IMG/VR virus record: IMGVR_UViG_3300044646_001834
Coordinates: 1-27,683 of that record
Source: a virus
Reading direction: 5' to 3' (one strand)
Length of the DNA stretch: 27,683 bases
The notes beneath the pieces are model-generated. The model ran no database searches and was not told the DNA's origin. It saw only the letters and a list, made by a program, of their open reading frames with translations. A program made the position numbers and the translations under genes. This document shows, one piece after another, positions 3,168-27,683 of this stretch. Position 1 is the first letter of the stretch. Each line of letters starts with the position of its first letter.

Positions 3168-4690
3168 TGGGCTTCCTCGATTCCATCCTGTCGAAGTTCC
3201 GGTCTGCGCCTGTCGACCGATACGAGGGCGCCGGCAACAGCCTGCGGCGTTCCTACCTTGACACGTCCTACACGTCCGCCCGGTTCGACGTGTCGTCTTG
3301 GACTCGGCAGGCGATTGTTCGAAAGTCGCGATTCTTTGAGCAGAACAACGCGGTGATGAACCGCCTGGGCGACCTTTTCGAGAGCTACACGGTCGGGAGC
3401 AACTTCTCGGTTCAGCCTGCTTCGTCGGATCCCGCTTGGAACCTACGGGCCAAGAAGTGGTGGGACGTCTGGTGCCGGTATCCCGACATCGGCTCCCGGC
3501 AGTCTTTCGGGACTCTGATGTCGCTGGCGGCACGCGGCTGGTTCTACGACGGCGAGTCGTTCTTGTTGTTGACCAAGGGCGAGTCTGGGCGTCCGCGCCT
3601 GCAACTCGTTGAGCCGCAGCAAATCTCGACGCCGACCGGGCAGGAAAACGCTGCCGACATCTTCGACGGCGTGCGGTTTGACCAGCGGACGGGCCGGGCT
3701 CTGACCTACTACGTCGGGCAAGAGCAGAAGCAGGGTGAGTTGACCGACATCCGCCCGATCTCGGCCGACTCAATCGTCCACATCTACGAACCGCAGCGCG
3801 CAAACCAACTGCGCGGCCTGCCATTTGTGGCGCCGGTCATCAACGACCTGCACGATCTCGACGACCTCCAGAAGCTGGAGATGGAATCCTGCAAGCTGGC
3901 GTCCAGCGTTGCCCAGGTCGTCAAGACGTCGTCCGGCGAGGTGCAGGCAACCAGCCTCCGGTCTGGCGTTGGAGGGTCTCAGGGAAGCGCCCAGACCTAC
4001 TACGAAAACGTCTTCGGCGCCCAGGTCAAGGTGCTGAAGTCCGGCGACGAGTTCGAACAGTTCATGTCTGACAGGCCGTCGGTCAACATGCGCGACTACT
4101 GGCGCCAGTTGACCGAAAAGGTCTGCGCCGGTGTCGGGATCCCATACGTCTTGGTCTATCCCGAGTCGATGCAGGGCACGGTCTACCGCGGGGCCTTGGA
4201 TATGTCGGCGGTCTGGTTCCGCGCTCGTCATGCGGTCATGGCGTCCGCCGCCCGCCGGATCTGGGAATACGTGATGGAATACGCCATCCGCGTGGATCCG
4301 ACGCTCAAGGATTCGCCGGACGACTGGTACGAGGTGGCCATCCAAGCGCCCCGTGCTCCCAACGTGGACGTCGGCCGAAATTCCGCCGCCCAGCTTGCCG
4401 AGCTGGAGGCCGGCGTCACGACTTACGACGAAGTCTATGGCGCCCGCGGCATCGACTGGCGGTCGGCGCTGGAGGCCAAGGCGCAGCAGGCCAAGTTCAT
4501 CCATGAGCTTGCCGAGAAGTACGATGTCGATGTCTCGGAAATCAGCCGAGCCCAGAAGCTCCCGATTGCCCCGGAGCCGGCCGAAGCCGAGGAGGTCGAG
4601 GTCGAGGAACCCGAGGACATGATGCCCCCGACCCCTGCGCCTACTGCCTCGGTTGCGAAACCAAAACGGAACCGGAGAAAGAAGAAATGA
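3167..4690 (+). CDS. Portal protein, lambda (gpB-like) family
   Basis: The portal forms the dodecameric ring at one capsid vertex through which DNA passes and to which the connector attaches. The 507-residue length is close to lambda gpB (533). Recognisable family segments include RKSRFFEQNNAVMNRLGDL near residue 50, the central ARGWFYDGESFLLL, QISTP, VHIYEPQRANQLRGLPFVAPV, and VCAGVGIPYVLVYPESMQGTVYRGA, typical of lambda-type portals. The C-terminus has an acidic glutamate-rich stretch followed by a basic KPKRNRRKKK tail. The start is ATG 3167, overlapping the previous TGA (TGATG). The reading frame is open further left, but the MGFLDS start fits the family. It ends in an ATGA overlap with the protease-capsid gene. 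Confidence 0.93.
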   Translation: MGFLDSILSKFRSAPVDRYEGAGNSLRRSYLDTSYTSARFDVSSWTRQAIVRKSRFFEQNNAVMNRLGDLFESYTVGSNFSVQPASSDPAWNLRAKKWWDVWCRYPDIGSRQSFGTLMSLAARGWFYDGESFLLLTKGESGRPRLQLVEPQQISTPTGQENAADIFDGVRFDQRTGRALTYYVGQEQKQGELTDIRPISADSIVHIYEPQRANQLRGLPFVAPVINDLHDLDDLQKLEMESCKLASSVAQVVKTSSGEVQATSLRSGVGGSQGSAQTYYENVFGAQVKVLKSGDEFEQFMSDRPSVNMRDYWRQLTEKVCAGVGIPYVLVYPESMQGTVYRGALDMSAVWFRARHAVMASAARRIWEYVMEYAIRVDPTLKDSPDDWYEVAIQAPRAPNVDVGRNSAAQLAELEAGVTTYDEVYGARGIDWRSALEAKAQQAKFIHELAEKYDVDVSEISRAQKLPIAPEPAEAEEVEVEEPEDMMPPTPAPTASVAKPKRNRRKKK

Positions 4691-6543
4691 CCAAGGTGAA
4701 CAACTGGCTGTCCTACAGCCCGCGAGCCGCTGCCAACGAGCCGGCCAACATCCAAATCTTCGACCAGATCGGCGAAGACTGGTTCAGCAATTCCGGCGTC
4801 ACGGCAAAGTCGTTTGCAGAAACCCTGCAAGCGGTCGGGCCCGGTCCGCTCAACGTCGAGATCAACAGCCCGGGCGGCAACGTCTGGGACGGCTTGGCCA
4901 TTTACAATATGCTGCGCGGTCGGCAGGCCCCGGTGACCACCAAGGTTGTCGGCGTTGCGGCTTCCATCGCTTCGATCATCGCGCTGGCTGGCGACACCGT
5001 GGAAATCGCGGACGCCGCCTTGATGATGATTCACGACCCGTCCGGTCTTGCGGCCGGCACGTCCGAGGACATGAGGAAGATGGCCGACGCTCTCGACCAG
5101 CACGCGGCCATCCTCGCCGGAGTCTACGAAAAGAAAACCGGCAAGACCGCATCGGCGATCCGTGCGGCCATGAAGGCGGAAACGTGGTTCACGTCCGCCG
5201 AGGCAATCGACTTTGGCTTGGCTGATTCGATCACCGAAAAGCAGCCCGCCATGCAGGCCAACGCCGCCCGCGCATGGGTGAGTGCGGCTCTCTCCAAACT
5301 TTCGACCGGCAGCACCAACGCTGTCGCCGATGGCGCGAACACCGCGCCGACATCACAGACACCACACAACATGGAAACCAAGACCCCTGATCCCGTGGTG
5401 CCGGCTGCTCCCGCTGCGCCGGCCCCTGCCGCCCCTGCCGCCATCGACATCGAGGCCATCGTCGCAAAGGCCGTCGCCGCCGCCATCTCGGCCAAGGCTC
5501 CGACCGCCGCGCCGGCCCCCGAGCCGATTGCGCCGCGCATCGAGAACATCGGCAACCCTCTGATCGAGGCCCACCGAAAGATGCAGGCCGGCGCCGAGCG
5601 TCGCGACTTCCTCGTCAAGAACCACGCTGAGCTTCTGCGGCAGGCTTCGATCCACGCGCCGCAGAACGCCAACACGTTCACCTCCACGCTGGTGGTCGAC
5701 TATCTGGCCGACGCGCTTATCACCGTTGCCCCGACCCGGCTGGCTCTGGTCAACGCCTTCAGCCGCAACGTCGGCCTGGACAACCTGCGCCCGCTGGCCG
5801 TTGTCCGCGTCAAGCGGTACACCACCGGCACCGCCGCCCAGACGAATCCCACCAACTGGGAGACAAACAACGACTCGCAGCTCGCCGCCACTTCGGTGAC
5901 GGTCGATCAGATCAGCAAAAACTTCACGGTGACCCAGCAGGAGCTCAACCAGGGCTTCAGCCTCGCCGACCTCGCCGCCGGTTCCGCCGACCTGTTCGCC
6001 TACGGCATCAGCGACAAGCTGACCGCCATCATGACCGCCGCCAATTTCGGCACGGCCATCACGATTGGCACCGCGGCCAACTTCGACTCCAGCGACCTGC
6101 CGGCGATCCTCGCGGCCGCGAAGAACTACCGCTCCAAGAACCTGATCCTCGACGGTGGCCACATCGCCAGGATCCAGTTTTCCGGTCTCACCACCGCCGC
6201 TGCCGGCACCGTGGCGATGCCCGACAGCCGATACGGCCCGCTCAACAACGGTCGCTTCGGCTTCGACGTCATCGCCGAGAACAACCGCTGGACCGGCGCC
6301 GAGACCAACGCGGCCGGCTTCGTCTGCGGCCCTGCCGCCATCGCCATCGCCGCGGGCCTCCCGGTTGGAATGGTTGCCGGTGAGTTCATCGAGCAGCGCG
6401 CCGTGACGACCTCCAACGGTCTGTCCGCCTTGCTTTCGGTCTGGTACAGCCGCGCCACCCGCTCCCACATGGCGTCCTACGACATCATGTTCGGCGCCGC
6501 CACCGGCGACACCACGCAGGCCGAGGTCCTCATCACCGCCTAA
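4687..6543 (+). CDS. ClpP-like prohead protease / major capsid protein fusion
   Basis: One 618-residue polypeptide combines a serine protease and the HK97-fold shell protein. Residues 1-185 are the ClpP/S49-type prohead protease: NSPGG (60-64) forms the oxyanion strand, S93 in GVAAS (89-93) is the expected nucleophile, H116 in MMIHDPSG the general base, and E165 lies at the third catalytic position. Residues about 215-295 are an alanine/proline-rich linker with a helix that could act as scaffold. Residues about 295-618 are the capsid domain, with RKMQAGAERRDFLVKN and VAPTRLALVNAFSRNV. Protease-capsid fusions are an established arrangement in some phages. The start overlaps the portal stop (ATGA) and is preceded by GGAGAAAGAAGAA. 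Processing between the domains by the protease itself is likely but inferred. Confidence 0.93.
   Translation: MTKVNNWLSYSPRAAANEPANIQIFDQIGEDWFSNSGVTAKSFAETLQAVGPGPLNVEINSPGGNVWDGLAIYNMLRGRQAPVTTKVVGVAASIASIIALAGDTVEIADAALMMIHDPSGLAAGTSEDMRKMADALDQHAAILAGVYEKKTGKTASAIRAAMKAETWFTSAEAIDFGLADSITEKQPAMQANAARAWVSAALSKLSTGSTNAVADGANTAPTSQTPHNMETKTPDPVVPAAPAAPAPAAPAAIDIEAIVAKAVAAAISAKAPTAAPAPEPIAPRIENIGNPLIEAHRKMQAGAERRDFLVKNHAELLRQASIHAPQNANTFTSTLVVDYLADALITVAPTRLALVNAFSRNVGLDNLRPLAVVRVKRYTTGTAAQTNPTNWETNNDSQLAATSVTVDQISKNFTVTQQELNQGFSLADLAAGSADLFAYGISDKLTAIMTAANFGTAITIGTAANFDSSDLPAILAAAKNYRSKNLILDGGHIARIQFSGLTTAAAGTVAMPDSRYGPLNNGRFGFDVIAENNRWTGAETNAAGFVCGPAAIAIAAGLPVGMVAGEFIEQRAVTTSNGLSALLSVWYSRATRSHMASYDIMFGAATGDTTQAEVLITA
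5371..5373 (+). other. Candidate internal start codon for a separate capsid polypeptide
   Basis: ATG 5371 encodes Met229 of the protease-capsid fusion, exactly where the protease domain ends and the alanine/proline-rich region begins. The preceding ACACCACACAAC resembles the purine-poor A/C leaders in front of independent genes in this window (for example before 14949 and 18232). No Shine-Dalgarno sequence is present. Initiation here would give a 390-residue scaffold-plus-capsid product, comparable in principle to the nested Nu3 start within lambda C. This is inference only. Confidence 0.3.
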
Positions 6544-18835: not shown

Positions 18836-21625
18836 ATGCCCTACGCCGTCGACCGCCGGGAGAAGATGTGGACGGCGGCGAACCTCAACAGCCTCTACAG
18901 CCGCTTCGATCAGAAGTGCGCCCGGGTGCTGGACGACAAGTCGCCGCTGTTTGCCAACTCGAAAGACGGACCGTGGGTCGGGCAGTATCCCTACGGCGTC
19001 TGGTACGTCTATCGGAACGACCCGGACTCCTGCCGGCGCTTGGTCGACGACGGGGCTGTGCCCAACCCGTCCATCCCGGGCATCGGCAGCGGCTACCGAG
19101 ACGAGCACAACGAGGTTGCCGCCCGGATCGAGCTGTCGAAGCTGGAGAACAAGCACGTCGACGTCGAAGGTGGGCAGGTCTACGTCGACCGATTCGTTGG
19201 CGCCGGCGATCCGTTCACCTGCGACGTCGGCCGCATCCACTTCTCCTTCGAGGTGCACCGCCGGGAGATCGCCGGCGTGCCCTACGACGTCCACCTCGGC
19301 TGGGATCCGACCACCGCGGGGCTGACCTCCTACGTCCGCGGCAGTCTTGGCCCCATCGACCCGACGCTGCCGCCAGGCCGGATCCACAAGCACCGGCTGG
19401 CCGTCGCCGAGATTGCGGTCGAGGGCCTGACCGCGTTTTCGATCCTGCGGACTTATCAGCGCTTCGACTGCTGGAGGATCCACAACTGCGGCGACAACGT
19501 GCTCCGGGTCAACCTGCAGAACCCGGACGGCAGCACGACGCCCCACTTCGTCCCCAAGGGTGGATGCCGTGCATTTCGCCGGAAGCCTGACGGCAACTGG
19601 ATCAACACTTGGCCGGGTGGCGGTGTCTGCACCTATTTTTTCCCGTACCTCACCGGCGACGTGCCGTTCTTTGCGGGCGGGCCTCCGGAATGGTCCGCCA
19701 ACGCTACGGAATCACCCTTCCTAGCCTTGGAACGGTCGGCTGCGGCCAACAACGTCGCCAACCCGTTTATCCTGCTGGAATGGCGCAGGGTGATGGGAGC
19801 GGTGCACGATCCGTTCGCCTCCTACGACATCCGGCAGATCTACCAAGGAGTCTATGGAGACCCGGGCGCATTCGGCAACGGTGTGGGCGACTGCGTGTTC
19901 ACCTGGGGCCGTGCCCGTGTCACCTACTCGGACGCCACCGGCAATGTCTTTGACCAGCGGGTCGTCCGGTTCAGCGGCGCCGGCACCCTGGTGGCCGGCC
20001 TTCGGTCTCTAGGCATGACCGTGGTCGAGAACGCCACCAGCCTGACCCTGACCTCCAACCGCGGCATCATTCGGATCTACCCGGTCGACGCCAACATCTT
20101 CACCACCGCATCCGATGCCTTCTGGGAGATCGGCGGGTCGCCGGTGACCATCTCGACCGTCTACCCGCAGACATTCATCCGATCCAATGGCGCCAACTTC
20201 TACGAATCGAAGTCCTGGTCGGCAGGAAACGAGGTGACCATCTTCGACTCCATCATCGACCTGCGGAGGAAGGTTGCGGTGGAGGAGGGATTCCTCAACA
20301 ACTACGACGACGCCCCGGACATCCTTGAGGAGAAGGTCTCCACCGTCACGATGACACCGATGGGGCTGGTCGTCCGGGCGACAAGTTCCACAGGCATCTC
20401 CGGCGACCTTTTGGTCAACTACGAGGCCAACGCAGACAACGAGTCGCTGTGGATCAGCGACCGCCCGATCAACTGGGGCGCCGGCCCATGGGCCAATAGC
20501 CGCTACACGTCCACCACTCGGATCTACTACCTGCACCGGGAGCGCAGCACATCGTCTCCGCTGTGGTCGAACCTGTTCCCGGGGATGTCGCTGGCCACCG
20601 TCAGCGGCTCCTACAGCTCGCAGGCGGTCAACACCGCATTCATCCCCCCGGGCGGCCCGTGGGGCTTCTCATCGTCCATCTACGACACCGAGAAGGCCCG
20701 GGCCTTCGGCTTCTCGGAATCCAGCACCGAGACCCGCGGCTGGGGCGCCGACTTCTGGATCGACAAGTGGGGCGGTGCCGAAGGTGGGGACGCCTCGGTA
20801 CGGATTCCGGGCAGCCCCAACCGGACCCGGCAATACGAGCGCATCGTCGACCCGTTCACCTTGGACGAGCTGACCGGGCAGATCGAAAGCCGCATCGATG
20901 ACATTTTCAAGGATCAGGACCAGGCTGCATTCGCTGCCACGGTGCCGCTGCCGGTGACCGGGGCGGCCAATTACAAAGAGGGCCTGACCGACATCCGCTG
21001 GACCTATGGCAACGACCAGCAGTTCGCCCTGGACTTCTATGCGGTCGAGAATCGCCTGCTGGCCGGTGGCGGCCCATTTTTCCACAAGATCCCGAAGTCG
21101 CCATGGCTCTGGAACCTGCTGGAATGGTCGGTCCGGAGCTGGACCCGCGCGGTGCCGTTGTGCCACGGCAACCTTGTCTGCCCGATCTTCGACGCCAGCG
21201 GGACCGCCGCGGTGCTGCAGGTGCTGACGGTCAACATGCTCCTGCTTGGGACGACCGGCTACGAGGCCGGCCTCGACATGGACGTGTGGTATCTGACCGA
21301 AGCATCCCACGACATCCTCATCGCCAACGGCGTGCCAGCCTACAAGCAGACAGACGCCTTTGGCACCGACTACTGGTTTGTCCAGGCCATCGACCTCGCC
21401 GCATATTGTAACCGGATGGGCTTCGGCTCCTGGAACTGGGACACGAAGGACGGCCAGCCAACCGCCAACCCTCCGGTGGCCGACACTCGCTACAAGGCGG
21501 TCCGGAACTACGGCCCGGGCGAGCGGGTGCAGGTCGGCAGCTACCTCGACGTCACGACCGGCGACTACGTCTTCCTGACCCTCCGATACGTCGACCTGCG
21601 CCTGCCCAACGAGTTCGGCGCTTGA
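18836..21625 (+). CDS. Large unrecognised tail protein (929 residues)
   Basis: This is the largest complete gene here and lies where tail tip or central-fibre proteins are encoded. The N-terminal region (MPYAVDRREKMWTAANLNSL, then a helix and beta segments) and the C-terminus (VGSYLDVTTGDYVFLTLRYV) show mixed alpha/beta character. The protein is rich in aromatic residues, such as WRIHNCGDN, FWEIGGSP, WNLLEWSVRSW and FGTDYWFVQAID. No transmembrane segment, peptidase or glycosidase motif was identified. It has no clear VGIGT or kelch repeats. It is probably a receptor-binding tip or a tail hub; the family is unknown to me. The start is ATG 18836 after CCCACC. Confidence 0.7.
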   Translation: MPYAVDRREKMWTAANLNSLYSRFDQKCARVLDDKSPLFANSKDGPWVGQYPYGVWYVYRNDPDSCRRLVDDGAVPNPSIPGIGSGYRDEHNEVAARIELSKLENKHVDVEGGQVYVDRFVGAGDPFTCDVGRIHFSFEVHRREIAGVPYDVHLGWDPTTAGLTSYVRGSLGPIDPTLPPGRIHKHRLAVAEIAVEGLTAFSILRTYQRFDCWRIHNCGDNVLRVNLQNPDGSTTPHFVPKGGCRAFRRKPDGNWINTWPGGGVCTYFFPYLTGDVPFFAGGPPEWSANATESPFLALERSAAANNVANPFILLEWRRVMGAVHDPFASYDIRQIYQGVYGDPGAFGNGVGDCVFTWGRARVTYSDATGNVFDQRVVRFSGAGTLVAGLRSLGMTVVENATSLTLTSNRGIIRIYPVDANIFTTASDAFWEIGGSPVTISTVYPQTFIRSNGANFYESKSWSAGNEVTIFDSIIDLRRKVAVEEGFLNNYDDAPDILEEKVSTVTMTPMGLVVRATSSTGISGDLLVNYEANADNESLWISDRPINWGAGPWANSRYTSTTRIYYLHRERSTSSPLWSNLFPGMSLATVSGSYSSQAVNTAFIPPGGPWGFSSSIYDTEKARAFGFSESSTETRGWGADFWIDKWGGAEGGDASVRIPGSPNRTRQYERIVDPFTLDELTGQIESRIDDIFKDQDQAAFAATVPLPVTGAANYKEGLTDIRWTYGNDQQFALDFYAVENRLLAGGGPFFHKIPKSPWLWNLLEWSVRSWTRAVPLCHGNLVCPIFDASGTAAVLQVLTVNMLLLGTTGYEAGLDMDVWYLTEASHDILIANGVPAYKQTDAFGTDYWFVQAIDLAAYCNRMGFGSWNWDTKDGQPTANPPVADTRYKAVRNYGPGERVQVGSYLDVTTGDYVFLTLRYVDLRLPNEFGA

Positions 21626-22853: not shown

Positions 22854-23152
22854 GCGCAGACATCAACCGATTGGAGGAATTGGCCGCGCTGATCCAAGCC
22901 GAGGTCCCGCGCATCATTGGCGAGGCCACGGACGCCATCAACGAGTCGATCACGGTCGCGCTGGAAGAAGCGCAAGAGGCCGAAACCGATGCGCCTGCCA
23001 AGCTCAAGCTCGCGATCACCGCCACGTGGAACCTCGACACCAACAGCGTCGAGGTCTCGATGCCGGTGGCCGTGAAGCGCAAGTTCACCCGGACTGCAAA
23101 GCTCCCGGATCACAGTCAAGCCAACCTGCCGCTGGGAGGTGCCAATGAGTGA
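22850..23152 (+). CDS. Small recombination-operon protein, function unknown
   Basis: The 100-residue product starts at GTG 22850, overlapping the preceding TGA and preceded by a strong AAGGAGGTG. It has a helix (LEELAALIQAEVPRIIGEA, about 8-26), an acidic linker, and a beta C-terminal half (KLKLAITATWNLDTNSVEVS, about 53-72). Related small proteins accompany phage recombination genes but the role is unknown. Eight bases of its 3' end overlap the nuclease start at 23145. A single-strand binding or partner role is a guess. Confidence 0.6.
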   Translation: MSADINRLEELAALIQAEVPRIIGEATDAINESITVALEEAQEAETDAPAKLKLAITATWNLDTNSVEVSMPVAVKRKFTRTAKLPDHSQANLPLGGANE

Positions 23153-24236
23153 CGAACGCAAGGGCCTCCCGTCCGCCAGTTCCGCGCAGCGCTACGCCCT
23201 CTGCCCGGGATCCTTCCTGCTGGAGCAGTCGGTTCATGAGCCGGACACCGCTGGAGCCGACGCCCAGATCGGAAACCGCATCCACGGCTTTCTGGCCGGG
23301 GAAAAGATCAACCTCGACGACGACGAGGCAAAGCTCGCCGCAATCTGCTTTTCGCAGGAGGTCGAGATCGCCAAGGCCGTGTTCCCGTTCCAAGAGCGGC
23401 TCACTATCATCCGCGAGCGCCGGCTGTGGGCGGTGGATGCGGATTTCAACAAGTCGTGGTCCGGCAAGCCGGACGTGGTCTACAACGACGGACTCAACGC
23501 CTTGGTCATCGACTACAAGACCGGCCGAGGCACCGTTGAACACGCCGCCGGCAACGCCCAGCTGCGGGCGCTGGCGGTCTTAGTCAACCAGTCGTGCGGA
23601 CCGTTCGGAGAGGTGACGGTTGCGATCATCCAACCGCTGGCCGGCGACCCGACGACATGCACCTACAGGTCCGAAGACCTGTCCCGCGCAGACTACGAGA
23701 TCAACCGGCTGATGTCGGACATCCGCAAGCCGGGCCAGCCGCGCAACCCGTCGGCCGAAGCCTGCAAATACTGCCGCGCCAAGGGCGTCTGCCCGGAGGC
23801 TCAGGCAGAGGTCAACAACCTCCCGACGCTGGTTCCGAGGGACGGGGTCGAGATCGTCATGACTCCCAAGCAGATCGCGGAGTTCCTCGCCAAGGCCCCG
23901 CTGGCCGAGGCCGTCATCGAGTCGGTACGCGGCAAGGCTCGCCGGATGCTGGAGGCCGGACACGCCATCCCCGGCTGGAAGCTCAAGCCCGGGTCGGTCC
24001 GCGAAACCATCACCCAGCCCGAGACCGTGTTCGGTCGATTCGTCGAGGCTGGTGGCACACAAGCCCAATTCGTCGGGGCAATCAGCATCACCAAAACCAA
24101 GCTAAAGGACGCGGTCAGGTCTGCCACCGGCCGCAAGGGCAAGGAGCTGGACGCCGCTGTCGAGGCCATCCTCGACGGCTGCACCGAGACCAAACAGACC
24201 GCGTCATCGCTGGTCGAAGACAAGGAGGCCGCGTGA
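23145..24236 (+). CDS. Cas4-like / DUF2800 PD-(D/E)XK nuclease
   Basis: The 363-residue protein is a likely metal-dependent exonuclease making recombinogenic 3' ends. The PD-(D/E)XK signature is visible: GNRIHGFL (H47), a strand with GKPD (D110), then VIDYKTG with D123 and K125, and Q139 downstream. A Cas4/AddB-like iron-sulphur set is present: C20 near the N-terminus and C207-x2-C210-x5-C216. The C-terminal third is helical. Pairing with the annealing candidate upstream is the logic of phage recombination modules. ATG 23145 is preceded by GGGAGGT at good spacing. Substrate polarity is unknown. Confidence 0.8.
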   Translation: MSDERKGLPSASSAQRYALCPGSFLLEQSVHEPDTAGADAQIGNRIHGFLAGEKINLDDDEAKLAAICFSQEVEIAKAVFPFQERLTIIRERRLWAVDADFNKSWSGKPDVVYNDGLNALVIDYKTGRGTVEHAAGNAQLRALAVLVNQSCGPFGEVTVAIIQPLAGDPTTCTYRSEDLSRADYEINRLMSDIRKPGQPRNPSAEACKYCRAKGVCPEAQAEVNNLPTLVPRDGVEIVMTPKQIAEFLAKAPLAEAVIESVRGKARRMLEAGHAIPGWKLKPGSVRETITQPETVFGRFVEAGGTQAQFVGAISITKTKLKDAVRSATGRKGKELDAAVEAILDGCTETKQTASSLVEDKEAA

Positions 24237-24658: not shown

Positions 24659-24981
24659 GGGGCCTCCAAGCGTTCGGCTTCGGCCGCATCCACACCTCCG
24701 CGGAGGTCCACACCAACGACGACGACAACAAGTTCCTCCAGATGATCGTCGAGTTTGAAGATCGACTCCTGCACAAGAGCGGGAAGGTCTACAACCAGCG
24801 CGTCCTGTTTCGCTCGTTTGACCAACTGGACATCGAGCGCGTGCAGGACTTCACCGATGGGCGATTCGTCGTGGTGGACGGGATGATCGACGCAGTCGCC
24901 GAGAAGTCGTCAACCGGCTGGTGGTACGCCAACCCGCGCCTGACAGGACGGATCCACTCAGTCATCAACACCGAGCCATGA
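24655..24981 (+). CDS. SSB-like small OB-fold protein candidate
   Basis: The 108-residue protein has the strand-turn pattern of small OB-fold DNA-binding proteins: GRIHTSAEVHTNDDDN, FLQMIVEFED, YNQRVLFRSFDQLD, GRFVVVDGMIDAVAE, WWYANPRLTGRIHSV. It shows no acidic C-terminal SSB tail. Its location between pyrophosphohydrolase and resolvase genes supports a DNA metabolism role. It starts by an ATGA overlap. Alternative: a related beta-barrel of unknown binding partner. Confidence 0.55.
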   Translation: MRGLQAFGFGRIHTSAEVHTNDDDNKFLQMIVEFEDRLLHKSGKVYNQRVLFRSFDQLDIERVQDFTDGRFVVVDGMIDAVAEKSSTGWWYANPRLTGRIHSVINTEP

Positions 24982-25448
24982 CCGACATCCTCCACTTCTG
25001 GGTGCCTGGAATCCCGAAAGCCCAGCCACGGGTCAAGGCCTTCCGCCGAGGCAACCGCGCTGGAGTCTACGATCCGGGCACGGCAGACGGCTGGAAACTG
25101 CTGGTGACCAATGGAGTCAACAGGAATTGGAACCGCGTTCAATTCACGGGACCGCTGCGGCTGGTGCTGGCATTCGTCATGCCGCGACCGAAAGCGCATC
25201 TCAACCGGCACGGAGACGTCAAATGGTCCGCGCCGTCGTGGCATCAATCCAAGCCTGACCTCGACAATCTGGCCAAGGCTGTGATGGATGCAATCACCCA
25301 AATGCAGGTCTGGCGCGACGATTCACAGGTCGTCCAACTGGAGGTCGGCAAGGGCTACGGCACACGCTCTGGATGCTTCGTCGTCTTGGGTAATGCGTCG
25401 TCCACCGACCCGCTGCTCAAGCTGGATTTCCAGCGCTTCGTCGCCTGA
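24978..25448 (+). CDS. rusA: RusA-family Holliday junction resolvase
   Basis: The 156-residue protein belongs to the RusA family, which cuts four-way DNA junctions. Sequence hallmarks are the N-terminal VPGIPKAQPRVKAF (9-22), FVMPRPKAH, and KPDLDNLAKAVMDAI, with D94/D96, followed by VWRDDSQVV with D115. The D-x-D spacing and the 19-residue gap to D115 reproduce the catalytic D70, D72, D91 arrangement of E. coli RusA. It may resolve recombination and replication intermediates before packaging. ATG 24978 overlaps the upstream stop. The annealing protein, nuclease and SSB-like genes precede it in the same operon. Confidence 0.92.
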   Translation: MTDILHFWVPGIPKAQPRVKAFRRGNRAGVYDPGTADGWKLLVTNGVNRNWNRVQFTGPLRLVLAFVMPRPKAHLNRHGDVKWSAPSWHQSKPDLDNLAKAVMDAITQMQVWRDDSQVVQLEVGKGYGTRSGCFVVLGNASSTDPLLKLDFQRFVA

Positions 25449-25792: not shown

Positions 25793-26137
25793 ATGACAAC
25801 CCTCTCCAACCTGATCTCCGCCCTGATCATCGTCGAGTCATCGGGCAACGACCTTGCCGTCGGCGACGGCGGCAAGGCCATCGGCCCGCTCCAGATCCAC
25901 CGCGGCGTGGTGATCGACGTGAACCGGATCACCGGATCGAGCTACCGGCACCAGGACATGACCAACCGGGCACAGGCCCGGGCGGTCTGCGAGGCCTATC
26001 TGCTGCACTACGGCCGCGGCAAGACCACCGAGCAGCAGGCCCGGATCTGGAACGGGGGCCCTACCGGGGACTGCAAGACGGCCACGGTGGCCTACTGGGC
26101 CAAGGTCCAAGCCCAAATGACGAAAGGAACCAAGTGA
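25793..26137 (+). CDS. Small lysozyme / transglycosylase-like endolysin
   Basis: The 114-residue protein has the lysozyme-like fold signature: IIVESSGND with catalytic E15, GKAIGPLQI (28-35), and a C-terminal ARIWNGGPTG (83-92) and AYWAKVQ. Such small enzymes cleave peptidoglycan glycan strands and are found in phages and in Verrucomicrobiota-type genomes. There is no signal peptide, so release would need a holin. The holin-like cluster is about 16 kb upstream. The ATG at 25793 is chosen because the family begins there; an earlier in-frame extension lacks homology. Confidence 0.8.
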   Translation: MTTLSNLISALIIVESSGNDLAVGDGGKAIGPLQIHRGVVIDVNRITGSSYRHQDMTNRAQARAVCEAYLLHYGRGKTTEQQARIWNGGPTGDCKTATVAYWAKVQAQMTKGTK

Positions 26138-27683
26138 ACGATTACGACGCGTTGATTGCAAAGAAGCGCAAGGTGACGGCCAACTACGGCTTCGATCCCT
26201 TGCCTATCACGGCGCCTCTGTTTCCGTGGCAGCGCCAGATTGTTGAATGGGCCGTCAGAAAAGGCCGATGCGCTCTCTTTGAGGATTGCGGCCTTGGAAA
26301 GACCGCGCAGCAACTTGAATGGGCGCATCAAGTCTGCCAGCACACGGGAGGTTCCGTTTTGGTTCTGACGCCTCTTGCGGTCGCCAGGCAAACCCAGCTT
26401 GAAGCAGTCAAGTTCGGCATCCCGTCCTGCATCGCAAAAGACGCATCCGACGTTACCAGCCCGGGAATCTGGATCACCAATTACGAGAAGCTGGACAAGT
26501 TCAACACAGACGAGTTTGCGGGTGTCGTGCTGGATGAAAGTTCAATTCTGAAAAGTTTCACCGGCAAAACCAGACAGGAATTGACAGCGGCATTTAGCCG
26601 GACCCCGTATCGACTGGCGTGCACAGCAACGCCATCGCCAAACGATTACACCGAGCTTGGTCAGCACGCGGATTTTCTCGGCATCTGCACGCCGGCGCAA
26701 ATGTTGGCCACCTATTTCATCAACGACACATTCAACACGGGCGACTGGAGGCTCAAAAAACACGCCGAAGCATCGTTTTGGAGATGGCTCGCCAGTTGGG
26801 CCGCGTGCGTTTCCAAGCCGTCAGACATTGGATTTGATGACAAAGGATACGACCTTCCAAAGCTCAACCTAGAAACCATCACGGTGCACGTCGACGAAAG
26901 CGCGTCGACAGGGGAAGACCTGTTTCGGATTGCAACGCTGTCGGCGACAACGATGCATCGAGAGATGAAGCTGACGTCTGGCCCGCGGGCCGACGAAGTC
27001 GCCCGTCTTGTGAACCACAGCACCGAGCCGTGGATTGTGTGGTGCAACACGAACGACGAAGCGGACGCTTTGATTGAGCGGATCCCAGATGCCATTGAGG
27101 TCAGAGGAAGCGATACCCCAGAACGAAAGCAAAAGGCCTTGGCCGATTTCAGCGAAGGAAGATCCAGAATCATCATCACGAAGCCTTCCATCGCCGGCTT
27201 CGGATTGAACTGGCAACATTGCCGCAACGTGGCCTTCGTCGGTCTTTCATACTCGTTTGAGGATTTTTACCAAGCGCTTCGGAGGTCCTACAGATTCGGC
27301 CAGACCCGAGAAGTAAATGCCTACATCGTGCAGGCCCAAACCGAAGGGGCTATTCTTCGGGCTATCGAAACAAAGATCAATCAACACAAAACCATGCAGG
27401 AAAACATGAAGCTGGCGGCAAAGGAATTGAGGTTTGCAACCTCGGAAACAATAGATGCCAAGGTCGACATCACGACCACAACCGGAGACGGCTGGACCGT
27501 TCACCATGGAGATTGCGTTCGGGTTGCCCGAGAAAAGATCGCCGATCACAGCATTGGCTTTTCCGTTTTCTCGCCGCCGTTTGCTGATCTTTTTACCTAC
27601 TCGGCAGACCCTCAAGACATGGGAAACTGCTCAACGATGGCCGAGTTCATGGAGCACTTCGGCGTATTGATCGGTGAATTGAA
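26134..27683 (+). CDS. SNF2-like helicase fused to a DNA methyltransferase (partial)
   Basis: The first 516 codons of a gene truncated by the right edge combine two enzymes. The ATPase part shows Walker A EDCGLGKT (50-57), Walker B VVLDES (131-136), TATPSPND (164-171), motif V AGFGLN (354-359) and motif VI QALRRSYRFGQ (380-390). It follows the SNF2/DEAD helicase order. From about residue 455, HHGDCVRVAREKIADHSIGF precedes SPPF (480-483), the catalytic motif IV of N6-adenine or N4-cytosine methyltransferases. Motif IV before motif I indicates a beta-type arrangement; motif I (FxGxG) would lie beyond the edge. GTG 26134 overlaps the lysozyme stop and has an AAAGGA upstream. G+C is lower than in the structural genes. 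Confidence 0.88.
   Translation, partial: MNDYDALIAKKRKVTANYGFDPLPITAPLFPWQRQIVEWAVRKGRCALFEDCGLGKTAQQLEWAHQVCQHTGGSVLVLTPLAVARQTQLEAVKFGIPSCIAKDASDVTSPGIWITNYEKLDKFNTDEFAGVVLDESSILKSFTGKTRQELTAAFSRTPYRLACTATPSPNDYTELGQHADFLGICTPAQMLATYFINDTFNTGDWRLKKHAEASFWRWLASWAACVSKPSDIGFDDKGYDLPKLNLETITVHVDESASTGEDLFRIATLSATTMHREMKLTSGPRADEVARLVNHSTEPWIVWCNTNDEADALIERIPDAIEVRGSDTPERKQKALADFSEGRSRIIITKPSIAGFGLNWQHCRNVAFVGLSYSFEDFYQALRRSYRFGQTREVNAYIVQAQTEGAILRAIETKINQHKTMQENMKLAAKELRFATSETIDAKVDITTTTGDGWTVHHGDCVRVAREKIADHSIGFSVFSPPFADLFTYSADPQDMGNCSTMAEFMEHFGVLIGEL

Follow-up and report, generated by a model that had tools for sequence, protein, structure and literature searches.

In type III restriction systems the Res subunit is made up of a superfamily 2 (SF2) motor with a C-terminal nuclease and Mod is separate, while DISARM consists of DrmD with drmMI and the drmABC core, and BREX of the methyltransferase PglX with PglZ and BrxC. 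The methyltransferases of type ISP restriction enzymes are of the gamma class, in which motif I comes before motif IV; motif IV ahead of motif I is the circularly permuted order of the beta class. Type ISP enzymes, such as LlaBIII and LlaGI, carry an SF2 motor and, after it, a methyltransferase on a single chain, which also contains a nuclease of the Mrr family, a coupler and a domain for DNA recognition (PMC4666363). In phages, gp60 of mycobacteriophage Pacc40 has been described as having a helicase domain with a methylase domain after it (PMC11855218, 2025), and related actinophage methylases are reported to be orphan, non-essential and often gained, lost and transferred (PMC9957025, PMC11855218). 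Orphan phage methylases are usually explained as protection against restriction (PMC9957025), and our literature search found no test of the exact job of the phage helicase-methylase fusions.

The window (the whole stretch of viral DNA analysed here, 27,683 bases, which is also the full length of its viral record) ends inside a gene of this architecture, which has a GTG start and is open through the final base of the record (Table 1). Its product scored above the Pfam cut-offs for SNF2-rel_dom (26.8 bits; cut-off 24.9) and Helicase_C (36.9 bits; cut-off 23.5), with ATPase motifs I, II, III and VI all intact. Past the linker the frame reads through GWTVHHGDC into SPPF, and a phrog_67 DNA methyltransferase match covers residues 423–493; the methyltransferase part inside the window is too short for Pfam, and motif I, which lies past the window's end, was read from relatives. 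An earlier note on this DNA, made from the letters alone, had described complete helicase motifs running in frame into an HGD-type segment and SPPF, and the motifs do occur in the expected order in a frame open to the contig end. Its further remark that an N-terminal nuclease is missing also held: no in-frame start codon was found between the last upstream stop and the start of the gene, leaving no room for a nuclease domain before the motor, homologues begin at the same place, and Pfam found no nuclease domain in the window ORF or in the full-length relatives.

Table 1. Positions in the window of the helicase-methyltransferase gene, its motifs and the genes upstream of it.
Feature	Position	Strand	Basis or remark
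DUF2800/PD-(D/E)XK phage exonuclease, early recombination module	23139..24236	+	Pfam DUF2800, PDDEXK_1; phrog_69
RusA-type Holliday-junction resolvase	24936..25448	+	Pfam RusA 1.5e-21; phrog_140
Lytic-transglycosylase-like small protein	25793..26137	+	relatives' copies profile 4e-47
Helicase-methyltransferase fusion gene, cut by contig end	26134..27683	+	516 of about 730 codons
Swi2/Snf2-type superfamily 2 motor, two RecA lobes, residues about 28-420	26215..27393	+	Pfam
Motif I (Walker A) GLGKT	26290..26304	+	sequence
Motif II (Walker B) LDES	26530..26541	+	sequence
Motif III TATP	26623..26634	+	sequence
Motif VI RRSYRFGQ	27280..27303	+	sequence
Beta-class DNA amino-methyltransferase domain start, residues 453 onward, cut by contig end	27490..27683	+	phrog_67
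Methyltransferase motif IV SPPF (residue 480)	27571..27582	+	sequence

Homologues at 62–97% identity were found on 80 IMG/VR contigs. Adding 80 GTDB genome loci and a further 80 viral loci gave the homologue set, in which 208 fused proteins were complete (680 aa or longer, typically about 730 aa). GxGKT, [ST]ATP and [FY]SPPF were present in all 208, LDES in 204 and the DE of motif II in 206; motif VI (RRSYRFGQ) was conserved with small variation and the motif I region of the methyltransferase nearly always read PFxGIG. The order of the motifs was the same throughout and the proteins start at the same point as the window ORF. With 80 homologues at this level of identity and a motif order common to 208 fused proteins, chance is excluded, and an artefactual fusion is ruled out because so many contigs yielded complete fused proteins. 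Among intact full-length relatives the closest (L003) is 84% identical over the shared part and scored 53.2 bits against Pfam N6_N4_Mtase (cut-off 26.7); PHROG 16 ('DNA helicase') aligned to its residues 24–732, covering both domains. The same note had allowed that the frame might stop shortly after SPPF or lack an S-adenosylmethionine-binding motif. In the relatives about 250 residues follow SPPF, and FTGIG or FAGIG is present, with FTGIG about 207 residues after SPPF at about residue 687.

One relative (L002) is 97% identical at the protein level and up to 98.9% identical over 1,146 bases of DNA. In this copy (L002:1790-3940) an in-frame 42-base deletion removes VVLDESSILKSFTG, the Walker B motif (window 26523–26564), and the methyltransferase half is intact; judged from the sequence of this one contig, the deletion either occurs in nature, leaving the motor dead, or comes from misassembly. 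Two further loci (L159 and L161) both come from CAINEA010000067.1, a 37,563-base contig assigned to an Acetobacteraceae bin. The two ends of this contig cut the fusion gene, so that it probably represents a circular phage genome linearised within that gene.

The C-terminal domain is predicted to be a beta-class amino-methyltransferase, acting on adenine N6 or cytosine N4, because motif IV ([FY]SPPF; residue 480) comes before motif I (FxGIG; FTGIG at about 687 in the relatives). Sequence searches with this domain returned TTHA0409, CcrM, MboIIA and relatives of DpnA and PvuII. The closest solved structure is TTHA0409 (PDB 2zie/2zif/2zig; sequence match 2.5e-13), a putative beta-class modification methylase of Thermus, which stands alone without a motor and has SPPY, whereas the window family has a fused motor and SPPF. 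The form of motif IV was not decisive for the methylated base, since TTHA0409 has SPPY and MboIIA has DPPY. AlphaFold2 modelling of L003 with 63 diverse family members gave a confident two-domain model (mean pLDDT 85.9, pTM 0.75) with a dip in pLDDT at residues about 430–440, the inter-domain linker. Residues 22–429 of the model aligned to INO80 and ISWI/SNF2h ATPases, the best match being INO80 (Z 34.1, rmsd 2.7 over 373 residues), and two RecA lobes with a Snf2-type fold are accordingly present in the model; in Foldseek searches TTHA0409 matched the C-terminal part (TM by target 0.83). Identity along the fused homologues revealed no hypervariable target-recognition stretch: the mean for residues 601–656, a stretch whose boundary is a guess, was 0.48 against 0.47 for the second lobe of the motor, which suggests a conserved, perhaps short, target.

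Judged by its sequence, the window gene belongs to a known phage helicase-methylase family of the PHROG 16 type, found in hundreds of phages and prophages, with an SF2/SNF2 helicase followed by an N6/N4 methyltransferase on the same chain. The Pfam matches, PHROG 16 and the 208 complete homologues all uphold the claim of an SNF2-like motor fused to a DNA methyltransferase, but the novelty implied by the earlier note does not stand, as PHROG 16, names in GenBank and PMC11855218 already give this architecture. The names 'DNA helicase/methylase' and 'DNA helicase/methyltransferase' are in use in GenBank for Mycobacterium phages Girr (gp64), Saal (gp68) and Sparky (gp66) and Arthrobacter phages Hestia and Gorpy, and the same protein occurs under other names in Synechococcus phage S-CBS3 (gp40) and Flavobacterium phage FCV-1. 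These proteins resemble the window gene in their two domains, order, length and motifs, although the copies of the named phages are less than 48% identical to it. Pacc40 gp60 has the same architecture but carries an intein and an HNH-containing insertion, neither of which was seen in the window's part of the gene. A query made of the motor and the start of the methyltransferase matched 393 of 50,697 phage records, and the methyltransferase domain matched 324; both halves were found in equal numbers of records for Mycobacterium (146/146), Flavobacterium (85/85), Arthrobacter (27/27) and Pseudomonas (22/22). Only 12 of 72,556 plasmids matched, and the fusion is by this comparison phage-borne.

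The comparison with type ISP enzymes drawn in the earlier note fails on two defining features. The window gene resembles LlaBIII and LlaGI in the order of motor and methyltransferase on one chain, but those enzymes combine an Mrr-type nuclease with a gamma-class methyltransferase, whereas the window family lacks the nuclease and has the beta-class motif order; it is not type ISP because a nuclease is neither fused nor regularly adjacent. Type III restriction (Mod/Res) was also ruled out, there being no nuclease domain and the methyltransferase lying on the motor chain. In DISARM, the SNF2 helicase DrmD and the methyltransferase DrmMI are used together, as are the two domains here, but they are separate bacterial defence proteins of a multi-gene system and the window family is single-chain. 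In a PADLOC scan of the relatives, DrmD gave a partial helicase match (28 bits) and no BREX model was among the best 25 matches. Nothing points to DISARM or BREX at this locus, where the contig ends at the fusion gene.

The fusion gene sits in the early replication/recombination region of the phage. Upstream of it lie the DUF2800/PD-(D/E)XK exonuclease, a MazG-like pyrophosphohydrolase, RusA and the small lytic-transglycosylase-like gene, so that the statement of the earlier note that the gene lies apart from the recombination genes was incorrect: RusA is about 0.7 kb upstream and the exonuclease just upstream. The lysozyme that it placed next door corresponds to the small gene; the window copy is only weakly lytic-transglycosylase-like (E 0.035), and the copy in one relative (L026) passes the Pfam SLT cut-off. 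The stop of this gene overlaps the GTG start of the fusion gene by 4 bases, which suggests translational coupling of the two. In the window's clade, 19 loci have the same small gene within 4 kb, a cell-wall enzyme thus being regularly beside an early DNA-modification gene. Elsewhere in the window, positions 4687–6543 hold one ORF of 618 aa in which a ClpP-like head maturation protease (residues about 3–278) is fused to an apparent major capsid protein. In the tail region, positions 18836–21625 hold an ORF of 929 aa that had no match in PHROG and may be a tail or receptor-binding protein.

Across the relatives, the neighbours included exonucleases, RusA, VRR-NUC, SSB, DnaB, primase, sliding clamp and RecT-type genes; they were called by a simple longest-ORF script, and some opposite-strand neighbours are spurious. 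The count of SF2-helicase neighbours was dropped, as the profile also hits the fusion gene, and a non-overlapping neighbour cluster was used instead. C5 cytosine methylases were found within 4 kb of 27 loci and made up 10 of 140 neighbours of the fusion gene in bacterial genomes. In the bacterial loci L086–L146 the commonest annotated neighbours were ParB-like proteins (phrog_620, 4715, 3264, 6218) and these C5 methylases, which look grouped as if in a DNA-modification island.

Among the loci fetched, 220 were fused and 23 split into adjacent genes; the use of full-length queries to fetch them makes these counts favour paired forms. Many split pairs overlap briefly, for example by 4 bases. On a quick helicase tree, the fused or split state changed about 10 times by parsimony (at least 5 on well-supported branches) with the genes staying adjacent, and the window's nearest relatives all fell in a fused aquatic clade that includes copies in Verrucomicrobiota assemblies. 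Distances of the helicase and methyltransferase domains were correlated (r = 0.83), and at 95% support the methyltransferase tree contradicted 3 of 17 helicase splits, so that domain swapping between the two is at most occasional. This shared inheritance of the two halves speaks for a joint function. The linker was the least conserved stretch (mean identity 0.19), suggesting a tether, not a rigid interface.

A modification-only enzyme, one of the possibilities raised in the earlier note, is the reading best supported by these observations, and we consider it somewhat better than an even bet that the gene encodes an orphan phage enzyme that methylates new phage DNA against host restriction, the dsDNA motor delivering the methyltransferase or clearing proteins. 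One polypeptide of ~730 residues joins a predicted Swi2/Snf2-type dsDNA translocase, through a short variable linker, to a beta-class amino-methyltransferase; the methyltransferase would mark newly made phage DNA and so blunt host restriction, and the motor would carry it along dsDNA or clear bound proteins, such that sites could be reached during rapid replication. The motor probably helps the methyltransferase to reach or act on DNA. The C5 methylases next door were taken as support for a modification context. The lack of a hypervariable target-recognition stretch counts against an anti-restriction role, for which arms-race selection might be expected to vary the target; a translocase that carries the methyltransferase processively on replicating phage DNA, in an enzyme whose target is fixed, short or degenerate and which lacks a restriction partner, is conceivable, though we would rate it as rather unlikely. 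Similarly doubtful is the proposal that the motor is a replication or recombination helicase, engaged for example in branch migration or fork remodelling, with a Dam-like methyltransferase marking daughter DNA for the phage's own regulation. This would fit a methyltransferase as conserved as the motor and without a variable recognition region, and also the neighbouring RusA, DUF2800 exonuclease, SSB, DnaB, primase, sliding clamp and RecT-type genes. Phages of Paenibacillus and Streptococcus have distant helicase-only relatives (about 22–25% identity) whose replication modules contain no methyltransferase and in which VRR-NUC, primase and polymerase genes adjoin the helicase; as plain replication-module helicases they indicate that the motor may have a separate job, and their setting suggests that a replication-module motor gained a methyltransferase. 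However, the commonest annotated neighbours in bacterial genomes are other methyltransferases, and related actinophage methylases are reported to be often gained or lost and non-essential, unlike a core replication function (PMC9957025, PMC11855218).

The two activities might instead be independent and share an mRNA or chain for co-expression only, the motor doing nothing for methylation. The persistence of split versions with short overlaps and the poorly conserved linker would agree with this, as would the copy that lacks motif II and keeps its methyltransferase, which, if real, speaks against an obligatory motor; but the pair is adjacent across bacterial phyla, the halves change together, and Walker A is intact in 208/208 and the DE of motif II in 206 of the fused proteins, and we regard mere co-expression as improbable. 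Participation of the motor and modification parts in a phage-borne restriction system for superinfection exclusion, with a nuclease such as VRR-NUC supplied in trans, seems very improbable. An SF2 motor, a methyltransferase and a nuclease are the make-up of type I, III and ISP enzymes, and VRR-NUC occurs near some copies as well as beside the methyltransferase-free relatives, yet there is no fused nuclease, only 11 of about 245 loci had VRR-NUC within 4 kb, it was not found in the window, and the PADLOC matches were generic type II methyltransferases and partial SNF2 helicases, with no full system. We give almost no credence to a degenerate type ISP enzyme that has lost its nuclease: the single chain with an SF2 motor and then a methyltransferase would suit it, but it is contradicted by the order of motif IV then motif I, the methyltransferase relatives are TTHA0409, CcrM and MboIIA, and a nuclease remnant ahead of the motor is absent.

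The family is large, the fusion being carried by phages and prophages from many bacterial phyla, and cultured phages such as Mycobacterium smegmatis phage Girr and Flavobacterium phage FCV-1 make it easy to test. If the motor powers methylation, these proteins would be a rare example of a nuclease-free modification enzyme that runs on ATP, and would offer a compact model of a dsDNA translocase and a methyltransferase acting jointly.
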